32,916 nucleotides of DNA, from the IMG/VR virus record IMGVR_UViG_3300038469_000141, positions 1-32,916 of that record, one strand, 5' to 3'. This DNA is from a virus. The position numbers and the translations under genes are program-made. Under the pieces are notes generated by a model. The model searched no databases and had not been told where the DNA came from. It saw nothing but the letters and a program-made list of their open reading frames with translations. Shown here one piece after another: positions 1,276 to 10,426 of this stretch (positions within the stretch are counted from its first letter, which is position 1; each line of letters opens with the position of its first letter).

Positions 1276-1338
1276 CGTAACGCCCCGCTGACGAGCCCCA
1301 CAAGGGCGAAACGCCGGTTCCCGGCGTCCGGAGATACG
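1276..1338 (+). ncRNA. Type I hammerhead self-cleaving ribozyme in a 5' leader
   Basis: All core elements are present in order. The 3' half of CUGANGA is CTGACGA at 1288-1294. Stem II is GCCC (1295-1298) and GGGC (1304-1307), a perfect 4-bp stem with the canonical G-C closing pair and a CACAA loop. The box GAAA follows at 1308-1311. Stem III is ACGCCGG (1311-1317) with CCGGCGT (1321-1327), 7 perfect pairs closed by TTC. The nucleotide before the cut is C1328. Stem I is open: G1287-C1329, C1286-G1330 and C1285-G1331, then an internal loop, then CGTA (1276-1279) with TACG (1335-1338). Stem I being open makes it type I. Predicted cleavage is between 1328 and 1329. The downstream product would begin CGGAG with a 5'-OH, 13 nt upstream of the ATG at 1342. 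Stem I contains the likely Shine-Dalgarno GGAG (1330-1333). Confidence 0.9.
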
Positions 1339-6028: not shown

Positions 6029-7459
6029 GTGGCGCGCTCGCGCCGGTGGTCAATGTCGCTTTTCGCCGCCGCGGCCCACCGGCGGCGGCAGCAAAGACCG
6101 CTCGGCGACCTGCTCGCCGGGCTGTCGCAGCAGCAGCAATCGTTCGTTCGCTCGCGGGCGCGGCTGCGGATCGTCGGTGGTGGTCGGCGCTCGGGCAAGA
6201 CCGAGTCGTTCGTCGCGGCGCTGGTCGCTGTCGCAGCAGGCCGGCCCGGTGCTTATGCGCTGTATATCTCGCTCACCCGCACGCTGGCCAAGCACACCGT
6301 GTGGGAGCGGATCAAGGCCCGGCTGCGACGGATCGGCCTGGACTTCCGGGCCGACGAAACCGAGTTGATCTTGCGGGTCGTCGGCGGCGGACAGATCCGG
6401 CTCGGGGGCGCCGACGACCGTCGCGAGATCGAGAAATACCGATCGCTGTACTATGACCTGGTCATCGTCGACGAATGCGGCGCGCAGGCCGACTACCTGC
6501 TGCGGCCCCTGGTCGTCGACGTGCTGCGCCCGGCGCTCATGGACCACGGCGGCAGCCTGGTGCTGGGCGGCACACCGGCGCCACTTCTCGCCGGGTTTTG
6601 GTATGAGCGCGACGGCCCACACTCGACCGTTCGCGCCGCAAGGTGGCGGTGGACGATCGCCGACAACCCGCTGTTTGCGGGCCGTTGGCAGGATGAGCTC
6701 GCGGCCGTTCGCGAGGAGAACGGCTGGGATGAAAGCAACCCGACCTACCAACGGGAGTACCTCGGGATCTGGGTGCAAGACCTGTCGGTCCTGGTGTACC
6801 CGTTCGATCCGGCATTCAACGCGGTCGACGAACTACCGCGCCGATCGCCGACGGGCGTCGCCCTGCCGCCCGGCGACTGGCGTCACGTGATCGGGGTGGA
6901 CGTGGGGCAGACGTCAGCCACGGCGATGGTCGTGCTGGGCACGCACCGCCTTTTGCCCGATGAGTACCTCGTGCATTCCGAGGGGCGGCCGGGGATGCTC
7001 ACGCACGAGATCGCCGGCAGGCTGCGCGAGCTGGTCACGATCTACCACGCGGGGATCGTGCTGGACTCGGGCGGCATGGGGGCGCAGCACGCCGCCGAGT
7101 TCGCCGCCCGCTTTCCGCTGCCGATCACGCCAGCCAAGAAAACCGAGAAACGGGCGCAGATCCGCAGCTTTCGTGACAGGTTGATCGCCGGGCGGATCAA
7201 GCTGCTGAACTTGCCGACGCTCGACCCGGTGCGGGACGAGTGGGCCGTGCTCGGGTGGGACCCCGCCGCACACGGGCTTGACCACCATCCGGCGCAGGCC
7301 GACCACTTTTCTGACGCCGCCCTTTACGCCGACCGTGAGCTGGCCCATTATCGGGCAGAGCAAGCCGCGATGCGGCGCCGGCCGATCCCATGGGGACCCG
7401 ACTTTGATGACGACGACGACGACGCCGGTGGGCGACGGATCCCAGTGTGGGAGCAATAG
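6029..7459 (+). CDS. terL: Terminase large subunit (ATPase and nuclease)
   Basis: This is the DNA-packaging motor that pumps the genome into the prohead and cuts it. The N-terminal ATPase has Walker A GGRRSGKT (residues 51-58), Walker B LVIVDE (144-149) and the coupling motif LGGTP (179-183). The C-terminal RNase H-like nuclease shows its acidic triad at D291 (GVDVGQTSATA), D346 (IVLDSGG) and D429 (HFSDAALYA). The length (476 aa) is normal for the family. The start is GTG at 6029; ATG at 6053 is a plausible shorter alternative. An aspartate run (FDDDDDDAGG) lies near the C-terminus. It is first in the packaging/structural operon and sits next to the LexA-like gene. Confidence 0.95.
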   Translation: MARSRRWSMSLFAAAAHRRRQQRPLGDLLAGLSQQQQSFVRSRARLRIVGGGRRSGKTESFVAALVAVAAGRPGAYALYISLTRTLAKHTVWERIKARLRRIGLDFRADETELILRVVGGGQIRLGGADDRREIEKYRSLYYDLVIVDECGAQADYLLRPLVVDVLRPALMDHGGSLVLGGTPAPLLAGFWYERDGPHSTVRAARWRWTIADNPLFAGRWQDELAAVREENGWDESNPTYQREYLGIWVQDLSVLVYPFDPAFNAVDELPRRSPTGVALPPGDWRHVIGVDVGQTSATAMVVLGTHRLLPDEYLVHSEGRPGMLTHEIAGRLRELVTIYHAGIVLDSGGMGAQHAAEFAARFPLPITPAKKTEKRAQIRSFRDRLIAGRIKLLNLPTLDPVRDEWAVLGWDPAAHGLDHHPAQADHFSDAALYADRELAHYRAEQAAMRRRPIPWGPDFDDDDDDAGGRRIPVWEQ

Positions 7460-8110: not shown

Positions 8111-8553
8111 TCCTCAACCCCGACACGCACCCCGAGCGTCACGCACAGGGCGGTGAGGCCTTCGCGTGGGTGGCCCGGACGCTGCGCGACGACGTGCTGG
8201 CTGACCCGGCGTACCACACGATCGTCGTGATGGTCGGTGTGCCTGGCGCGGGCAAGTCGACCGCGGCCAAGCGGTACGACGCAACCGGCGTTTGTGTGCT
8301 CGACCAATGCCACGTCGACCCGGCCCGACGCCGGGCACTGTGCCGGCAGATCAAGAAAACCGGGCGCCGCGCTGTTGCGGTGCTCGTGTCGTGCCACACG
8401 GCGCTTGCGGTGGGCCGACGCGAGGGTCTCGTGCCCGGGTGGAAGATCCGCGACATGGCCAGCCGCCTGCGCGCGCATCCGGTGTCGCACGGCGAGGGAT
8501 GGGACGAGATCGTGCGGATTGACGGGACGGGGGATCGACGTGGCTACCAATAG
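8107..8553 (+). CDS. P-loop kinase of the polynucleotide-kinase-like (AAA_33) type, compact form (148 aa)
   Basis: The start is probably TTG at 8107 in a TTGA overlap with the preceding stop. Residues 38-52 form a strand and Walker A: HTIVVMVGVPGAGKST. The C-terminal region (about 101-137) has the lid pattern of T4 Pnk-like kinases: AVGRREGLVPGWKIRDMASRL, then P....GEGWDEIVRI. The segment between the P-loop and the lid is short. LDQCHVDPARRR (65-76) follows the P-loop closely, whereas family members usually have some 40 more residues there, including a separate catalytic Asp/Arg motif. It may therefore be a reduced kinase with an altered substrate, or inactive. The substrate (5'-OH nucleic acid or a small molecule) cannot be told. 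It overlaps the portal gene by 14 bp. Confidence 0.75.
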   Translation: MILNPDTHPERHAQGGEAFAWVARTLRDDVLADPAYHTIVVMVGVPGAGKSTAAKRYDATGVCVLDQCHVDPARRRALCRQIKKTGRRAVAVLVSCHTALAVGRREGLVPGWKIRDMASRLRAHPVSHGEGWDEIVRIDGTGDRRGYQ

Positions 8554-10426
8554 CGGTCCGTGGTGGGAACAGCCCAAGAATGACGTAGATCGCTGTCTGC
8601 TCGCCGACTTTGCGATCATCGCCGGCCACCACCGCGAGCGGCGGACGATGCTGGAGGCCTACCGCGCCGCGTACCGTGACATTCCGTTCGGTGGGCTCGA
8701 CTCGCTGGGCTTTATTCGGCACAGAAAGAGCCGATACCCGCTGCTTTCGGGCGCACTTGACAGTGCCGTCGCCCGGCTGATCACCACGCGCCCGCGCCCA
8801 CAGGTCGTGACCGTCGGCGGCCGGTGGAAGCTGCAGCGCCTCGCCAAGCTGCGGCAGCGCTGGCTTGACGGCGAGTATGAGCGCCTGGACGCCTATGGGA
8901 TCTTGGACCGGCTCACCCTGGACGCGGGGATCTACGGCTCGGGGGCGGTCAAGGTGTCGGCCGTCCGCAACCGATGCACCGCGCAGCGCACGTGGATCGG
9001 CGACCTGTTCACGGACCCGTCCGAGGAGCGCTACCCGCCGGTGATGACGCTCTATCAGGCGATGCCGTGCTCGCGCGGGCAGCTGATCGGCATGTTCCCC
9101 AAAAAGCGATCGGCGATCGAGCAGATCCCGCCGACCACGATGCACCAAGACGCGTTCCCCGATATGGTGATCCATGGCTACGAAAACCGCGATCGTGTCG
9201 CGGCAGTCGAGGCGTGGCGCCTGCCCTTCGGGCCCGACGAGCCTGGACGGCGCGTCATCGTCAGCGACGGCGTGACGCTGGTCGACGAGGACTGGACGCA
9301 CGCGTCTGTGCCATTCGCATTCCTGCACTGGCAGCCCGATCCGGAACGCTTTTGGGCGCAGGGCCTCATCGAGCGCGGGCTGGGGATCCAAAGCGACCTC
9401 AACGACCTGACTGATATCAGCCAAGAGTCCTACAACAAGTTCACGCCGTATTGGCTGATCCCCGACGGGTGCGAAGTGTCGGTCAAGCGGATGACCGACG
9501 AGATCGGCAACGCGATCTACTACAAGGGCAACAACCCGCCGACGCTCGCCGCCCCGCCGCCGGTCGCTCCCGATTTCCTCAACCGCGAGGAGACGGTGGC
9601 GGCGCGGGTGATGAAGGCCACCGGTGTGCCCGAGCTCGGGGCGATGGGCGTCAAGCCGGCCGGGCTCAACTCGGGCAAGGCGATCGTGGCGTTCGCCGAC
9701 GAAACAAATGGGCGGTTCATCATGCCCGGCCGCTCGCGCGAGCGGTGCTCCATGGAGTTCGCCAAACTGCTGCTACGCACTGCAAACGAGGTCGCAGAGC
9801 AAGGCAGCGCGCAGGCGCTGCGGGTCTACGGCGGCAAGGGGCGACTGGAAATCGCCGACTATGCCGACATCGTGGCGCAGGCAAACGAGCTCGGGGACGA
9901 CGACGTGTTCGAGGTGCGGGTATTCCCCGTGTCGGCGCTATCCAACACCGTATCCGGCCGTTTGGATGAAGTCCAGACCATGGTCAATCTCGGCCTACTT
10001 GGCCAAGACCAGGACCAGATCCGTGAGCTCTTGGACATGCCCGACCTCGAGAGGGCGACCGATCTCGCGTCCGCACGGCGAGATGCGGCACGACGGCAGA
10101 TCGACAAGTGCCTAGACGGCGAACAGGGCGTCGCCGGCATGTACATGGATCTCGATTTCGCGGTAAAGCACGCGCTGGTGGAGCTCAACCTTGCCGACGT
10201 GTCCGGCGCCGAGGAAGACGCGCCCGAGGTGATGGAGTGTTTGCGCAACTTCCTTTCGCACGCCGAGCTCTTGCGCAAGAAGGCGTCGGCCGACGCCGCA
10301 GCCGAGCAAGCCGCGATAACGGGACCGCCACCCGGGCCGATGGGCCCTGGCGGTCCGCCACCCCCGGCAGGGCCGATGGGCCCGCCGCCTGAAATGCCGC
10401 CGATGCCTGGAGGGATGCTCCAATGA
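8540..10426 (+). CDS. Portal protein (628 aa)
   Basis: This is the dodecameric ring at the head vertex through which DNA enters and leaves. I chose GTG at 8540 (GGGG about 6-7 nt upstream; VATNSGPWWEQPKNDVD). Supporting features are its position after the terminase, its length, the N-terminal helical region with RYPLLSGALDSAVARLITTRP, and the tryptophan-rich FAFLHWQPDPERFWAQGLIE. A long stem/crown part contains SDLNDLTDISQESYNKFTPYW. The C-terminal hallmark is SNTVSGRLDEVQTMVNLGLL followed by IRELLDMPDLERA (bases about 9941-10062). The last 40 residues are a Gly/Pro/Met-rich tail (GPPPGPMGPGG). The SNTVSGRL segment recurs in the gene at 3428. It overlaps the scaffold gene by ATGA. Confidence 0.85.
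   Translation: MATNSGPWWEQPKNDVDRCLLADFAIIAGHHRERRTMLEAYRAAYRDIPFGGLDSLGFIRHRKSRYPLLSGALDSAVARLITTRPRPQVVTVGGRWKLQRLAKLRQRWLDGEYERLDAYGILDRLTLDAGIYGSGAVKVSAVRNRCTAQRTWIGDLFTDPSEERYPPVMTLYQAMPCSRGQLIGMFPKKRSAIEQIPPTTMHQDAFPDMVIHGYENRDRVAAVEAWRLPFGPDEPGRRVIVSDGVTLVDEDWTHASVPFAFLHWQPDPERFWAQGLIERGLGIQSDLNDLTDISQESYNKFTPYWLIPDGCEVSVKRMTDEIGNAIYYKGNNPPTLAAPPPVAPDFLNREETVAARVMKATGVPELGAMGVKPAGLNSGKAIVAFADETNGRFIMPGRSRERCSMEFAKLLLRTANEVAEQGSAQALRVYGGKGRLEIADYADIVAQANELGDDDVFEVRVFPVSALSNTVSGRLDEVQTMVNLGLLGQDQDQIRELLDMPDLERATDLASARRDAARRQIDKCLDGEQGVAGMYMDLDFAVKHALVELNLADVSGAEEDAPEVMECLRNFLSHAELLRKKASADAAAEQAAITGPPPGPMGPGGPPPPAGPMGPPPEMPPMPGGMLQ

Follow-up and report, generated by a model that had tools for sequence, protein, structure and literature searches.

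A phage gene leader with a type I hammerhead ribozyme motif that holds the Shine-Dalgarno sequence in its stem I

The role of bacterial and phage hammerhead ribozymes is an old open question. In prophages, hammerheads flank genes, and the processing of long phage transcripts has been proposed (Perreault et al. 2011, PMC3088659); several of these hammerheads cleave in vitro, and one set does so in E. coli (Perreault et al. 2011, PMC3088659). In the haloviruses HF1 and HF2, a hammerhead is located 13 nt 5' of the start codon of a helicase, and the 5' end of the mRNA has been mapped to not more than 3 nucleotides from the hammerhead cut (PMC3088659). Hammerhead switches have also been engineered in which the Shine-Dalgarno sequence is sequestered (Wieland and Hartig 2008, as described in PMC5052635 and PMC10381313).

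The window analysed here is the whole stretch of 32,916 bases of an IMG/VR virus record (G+C 0.68), and it has a hammerhead motif on the plus strand at 1276-1338. When compared with the phage and prophage hammerheads of RF00163 (PMC3088659), this motif is alike in its core, its three stems, its open stem I, its phage setting and its intergenic place in an operon, and it differs in having a stem I of three contiguous base pairs followed by a mismatch, a score below the gathering score and the Shine-Dalgarno sequence inside stem I. As in the HHphage ribozyme of HF1 and HF2 (PMC3088659), the distance to the start codon of the downstream phage gene is 13 nt; the core of the HHphage ribozyme carries insertions, and the host there is archaeal, whereas the core of the window copy is canonical. 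With the Wieland-Hartig switches, as described in PMC5052635 and PMC10381313, the window copy shares a bacterial 5' leader with a Shine-Dalgarno sequence and an anti-Shine-Dalgarno strand across the cut, and unlike these switches it is natural, has no aptamer and has a much shorter and weaker stem I. No natural hammerhead with the Shine-Dalgarno sequence in stem I was found in the literature searched, in which subscription journals and preprints are thinly covered, so that novelty is only weakly indicated.

The hammerhead motif and its predicted cut site

The stretch 1276-1338 is confirmed as a real type I hammerhead motif with a complete core; it is seen on reading the sequence, in a structural scan and with a covariance model (R1), and it gives an Rfam match below the gathering score. 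The core positions of type I hammerheads (C3 U4 G5 A6 N7 G8 A9, G12 A13 A14, the pair A15.1-U16.1 and H17) are read as CUGACGA at 1288-1294 (CTGACGA in the DNA), GAA at 1308-1310, A1311, U1327 and C1328. Stem II (1295-1307) is a perfect hairpin of 4 bp between GCCC (1295-1298) and GGGC (1304-1307), closed by the loop CACAA, and stem III (1311-1327) is a perfect hairpin of 7 bp (1311-1317 with 1321-1327), which starts at the A15.1-U16.1 pair and is closed by the loop UUC. This agrees with the original prediction of a complete invariant core and of perfect stems II and III with small loops. The core-adjacent pairs 10.1-11.1 (G1295-C1307), 1.1-2.1 (G1287-C1329) and 15.1-16.1 (A1311-U1327) are intact. 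From the hammerhead consensus, the cut is predicted to be 3' of C17 (1328), between 1328 and 1329.

Stem I is the weak element of the structure. Its 5' strand, CCCCG (1283-1287), is paired at four of five positions with the 3' strand CGGAG (1329-1333), as seen from the sequence and from the alignment of related copies; three contiguous base pairs (1285-1287/1329-1331) are followed by the mismatch C1284.A1332 and by the pair C1283-G1333. The Shine-Dalgarno sequence GGAG (1330-1333), also assigned from relatives with an equal layout, is part of this 3' strand, as was claimed, and it is located 8 nt 5' of the ATG. The distal pairing of CGU with ACG (1276-1278/1336-1338) is only marginally favourable in the folding calculations, and the fold in which stem I is forced is about 1-2 kcal/mol better than the fold with stems II and III alone. 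Stem I of the window copy is the shortest among all hammerheads collected, and its weakness corrects the original description. In the minimum-energy fold of 1260-1345, nucleotides 1267-1270 are paired with 1287-1290, which disrupts the core, while stems II and III still form. The loop II of the window copy (CACAA) is unlike the common U..AU loops; its ACAA and, in stem I, GGAG with an A directly after it, which bear on the putative contact of stem I with loop II, recur in the copies L319:434 and L133:7156.

When both strands of the window are scanned for the exact core with at least 3 bp in stem II, at least 4 in stem III and at least 3 in stem I, a single motif is identified, whereas 60 Markov shuffles yield none. 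Markov sequence with the dinucleotide make-up of the window has 4 motifs in 293 Mb, corresponding to an expectation of 0.0009 for the window, and in no case among these 4 are stems II and III as long as those of the window copy. No type II or type III hammerhead is present elsewhere in the window, on either strand.

The original prediction named the Rfam hammerhead models as one of its tests. With these, Hammerhead_1 (RF00163) matches the ribozyme with 25.9 bits, but this is below the gathering score of 34, which is the curator's score cut-off and lies outside the structural definition; no Rfam family reaches its gathering score in the window. The E-value of this match is 6.3e-6 when the single family is searched over the record and 0.027 over all 4227 families, and no other Rfam family gives E<1 in the window. 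When the limit is relaxed to E 10, Hammerhead_1 also matches 13 of 14 control genomes, so that the E-value, and not the match alone, is informative. R1, trained on 59 phage hammerheads with the window excluded, scores the window copy at 46 bits (E=4.5e-12), within a range of 24-62 bits for the other members; part of this score is expected, because the training set was collected by patterns that the window copy also satisfies, and the chance figure of 0.0009 is independent of this set. The complete core and stems, the low chance expectation, the sole Rfam match and the R1 score support the assignment as a type I hammerhead. The ribozyme is probably active.

Two further matches were rejected. 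A second R1 match on the minus strand (16532-16510; 9.7 bits, E 1.3) is a chance match, and membership in RAGATH-1 (RF03152) is not adopted at 25.7 bits, far below the gathering score of 56.3. This weak RAGATH-1 match takes in a small hairpin, CGCC/GGCG, at 1260-1275, which spans the upstream stop codon.

The leader position in the window and in other phages

The genes around the ribozyme are on the same strand. Upstream are an ORF of 138 aa (647-1063), with a coding-like GC by codon position of 0.73/0.59/0.81, and an ORF of 70 aa (1060-1272; 0.73/0.58/0.92), which overlap at ATGA and have no family match. The stop codon TAG of the latter (1270-1272) is 3 nt 5' of the ribozyme, and the downstream gene (1342-2280), an orphan of 312 aa, has the GC pattern of a real gene (0.73/0.50/0.87). 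The gap of 69 nt between this TAG and the ATG at 1342 is almost all ribozyme, leaving little room for a separate promoter, and it has no in-frame ATG, GTG or TTG. The leader position before a phage gene is thus as originally described, and so is the cleaved leader, since the ATG is 13 nt past the predicted cut; cutting between 1328 and 1329 would leave these 13 nt with GGAG from the second base.

The 312-aa protein is predicted to be largely helical, in a low-confidence model (pLDDT 58.9) that is too poor for a structure search; it has no PHROGs match, its Pfam matches are all below the cut-off, and its gene has no relatives in IMG/VR or INPHARED. PHROGs matches identify a terminase (phrog_2, 6029-7459) and a head-tail adaptor (phrog_332, 8237-10426). 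Among cultured phages the terminase has distant matches, the best being phage DSL-LC06 (E 9e-9, 29% identity), and the searches for relatives of the terminase and of the connector returned none or distant ones only. Close copies of the window ribozyme were searched for and none were found, and an R1 scan of the distantly related phages L122, L123 and DSL-LC06 shows no hammerhead.

A core-pattern scan of IMG/VR finds at least 116 structural hammerheads, the window copy included, whereas Markov versions of these loci contain 1, and together with two further scans at least 307 distinct hammerheads in at least 198 loci are obtained. Among the matches listed, an ATG-started ORF begins within 80 nt 3' of the cut for 269 of the 307 hammerheads, with a peak at 20-40 nt; one of the three scans selected for a nearby ATG, and the first core-pattern scan, which did not, has the same peak. 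For phage hammerheads sampled from IMG/VR, a short 5' leader is therefore the usual setting. The distance in the window, 13 nt, is shorter than the common 20-40 nt. The claim that such a position is undescribed is not supported: in most of the about 300 hammerheads collected, the cut is 20-40 nt 5' of a start codon, and with the published HF1/HF2 case at 13 nt (PMC3088659) the leader position is not new in kind. In many contigs there are several hammerheads, each before its own small ORF. Perreault et al. proposed that hammerheads trim long phage transcripts, and this is supported by the finding that leaders are the usual home of these ribozymes, often in series before successive small genes.

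Some of the collected loci have other features. The records IMGVR_UViG_3300037205_000035 (L319 and L327) and IMGVR_UViG_3300015371_000033 (L200) each have about 10 type I hammerheads in a few kb, many of them directly before successive small ORFs. In L032, L128, L130, L131, L134, L141, L166 and L197, the hammerhead is followed by a conserved stretch starting AAGGACAC, mostly with no close start codon, and this stretch is perhaps another structured RNA 3' of the hammerhead. In L125, L129, L136, L140, L142, L148, L161, L165, L167, L171, L178, L189 and L193, the hammerhead precedes GGAGTATCCC or GGAGTTTCCC and a stretch that resembles a hairpin, and this conserved 3' flank does not look like a leader.

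Compact copies with the Shine-Dalgarno sequence in stem I

Less ordinary than the leader position itself is a recurrent compact subclass, which we define by a stem I that includes a Shine-Dalgarno core and by a distance of 4-12 nt from this core to the start codon. It resembles the engineered Wieland-Hartig switch. The window copy, with GGAG at 1330-1333 and 8 nt to the ATG, belongs to it. Including the window, at least 15 copies are found in 10 contigs: one each in the window, L200, L310 and L315 (where the ORF runs past the contig end), two each in L133 and L311, three in L322, and further copies in L326, in L335 and in the contig of L319 and L327. Additional probable copies of the subclass are located in L327 at 6348, 5559, 5192 and 108. 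In the hammerhead at L327:5509-5559, stem II begins with a U-U mismatch, the cut site is an A, and an ATG follows 10 nt downstream. In L322 (321-1018), three hammerheads with the Shine-Dalgarno sequence in stem I follow one another, and each cut is separated by exactly 13 nt from the ATG that starts a small ORF. Among genome contigs, 23 sequences match the subclass pattern and only one of these is a structural hammerhead, in a Chamaesiphon MAG (L343:3560), having GGGAG in stem I and no ORF start near the cut.

The copies were collected by scans for GGA or GGAG at 0-4 nt from the cut, followed by a structural filter; the start codon was not selected for, and the spacing between the cut and the ATG can therefore be tested. 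An ATG at 9-16 nt past the cut is found for 12 of 39 hammerheads with a Shine-Dalgarno-like sequence in stem I and for 1 of 106 without it (Fisher p=3.7e-7, the true p being larger as several copies come from some contigs). In the alignment of 15 copies, every cell of stems II and III is paired, as are 87.8% of those of stem I. The scan required only the first pair of stems II and III and no pairing in stem I, but the structural filter set a minimum of 3 pairs for stems I and II and of 4 for stem III, so that these percentages are partly built in; this does not apply to changes on both sides of a pair, which occur somewhere in the alignment for five of the six stem I pairs while the Shine-Dalgarno sequence is kept. 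The covariation over the whole structure is 0.708, compared with 0.157 when shuffled, and sliding the partners by 1-3 columns reduces the pairing from 95% to 35-43%. The C opposite the A of GGAG in the window copy is also present in L311:1976.

Transcript trimming and alternative roles

The explanation that best covers these data, to which we give a probability of roughly three in four, is that a type I hammerhead in the leader of the phage gene cuts a polycistronic transcript between 1328 and 1329. Transcription through 1272-1342, cleavage in vivo and an effect on translation are what we infer from this arrangement. The cut would probably occur during transcription. By analogy with the known hammerhead reaction, the upstream genes would keep a 3' end that carries a 2',3'-cyclic phosphate and is capped by the ribozyme's stems II and III, and the 312-aa ORF would be on an mRNA that starts with a 5'-OH and the 13-nt leader. 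The short stem I, the missed Rfam gathering score and the core-disrupting minimum-energy fold count against this explanation, as do the searches that returned no close relative and the R1 scan that showed no hammerhead in L122, L123 and DSL-LC06. As the nucleotides of the Shine-Dalgarno sequence double as stem I 3' strand, an intact ribozyme and 30S binding at GGAG should be mutually exclusive, and cutting and initiation would be coupled to some degree. The placement of the Shine-Dalgarno sequence in stem I would tie cleavage to the translation of one defined gene, and the function is therefore testable by a simple reporter.

It is possible, as a tentative alternative, that the ribozyme is a translation switch, in which the uncut stem I hides the Shine-Dalgarno sequence and self-cleavage frees the anti-Shine-Dalgarno strand, turning the gene on. 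For the subclass, this is in agreement with the covariation of stem I with the Shine-Dalgarno sequence and with secondary-structure predictions, which ignore tertiary contacts, ribosomes and co-transcriptional folding. In these predictions, the mean unpaired probability of the Shine-Dalgarno sequence of 14 subclass copies increases from 0.24 before to 0.64 after cutting, rising in all 14, compared with a change from 0.56 to 0.66 for 74 ordinary leaders (p=1.5e-5); stem I is thus predicted to hide the Shine-Dalgarno sequence in the relatives and cleavage to expose it. The leaders of L322 and L310 are among those with the largest predicted effect. The engineered form of Wieland and Hartig is also reported to work in E. 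coli (PMC5052635, PMC10381313). The freeing of the ribosome site that was claimed for the window is therefore predicted for its relatives, but for the window copy itself the effect is weak: the change is small (0.64 to 0.76), it depends on the length of the downstream sequence folded, and with a longer downstream stretch the value falls from 0.46 to 0.22, whereas the other copies keep the direction of the rise. Furthermore, a constitutive ribozyme regulates nothing unless the cutting is slow or modulated. As stem I of the window copy is the weakest, with 3 bp followed by C.A, transcript trimming is better supported than the switch for this copy and is the role that we consider most likely; translation gated by cleavage is a plausible reading of the subclass but a weak one of the window copy. 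The wider proposal of a natural phage class, in which stem I is both the substrate strand and a Shine-Dalgarno/anti-Shine-Dalgarno lock and self-cleavage activates single genes in long transcripts, is put forward with considerable doubt; if true, it would be the natural counterpart of the engineered Shine-Dalgarno switch. Given the recurrence of the layout in about ten viral contigs, self-cutting RNA may serve some phages in trimming, and perhaps in opening, the starts of single genes.

The overlap of the Shine-Dalgarno sequence with stem I also fits a different coupling, in which stem I would be opened by a 30S subunit at GGAG and the ribozyme kept from acting, such that only untranslated messages are cut. 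The weak stem I with its C.A mismatch (also in L311:1976) would favour the ribosome in this competition. Nevertheless, co-transcriptional cutting is expected to be faster than the loading of the 30S subunit, and a cut 5' of the Shine-Dalgarno sequence would leave the message undestroyed. We regard this coupling as improbable.

That the motif is instead a decayed, inactive hammerhead retained by chance, as could be suggested by the shortest stem I of the set, the missed gathering score and the departing loop II, is unlikely when considering that every core position is unchanged, that stems II and III are perfect, that the R1 score is within the range of the other members, and that natural hammerheads commonly have weak stems (PMC3088659).
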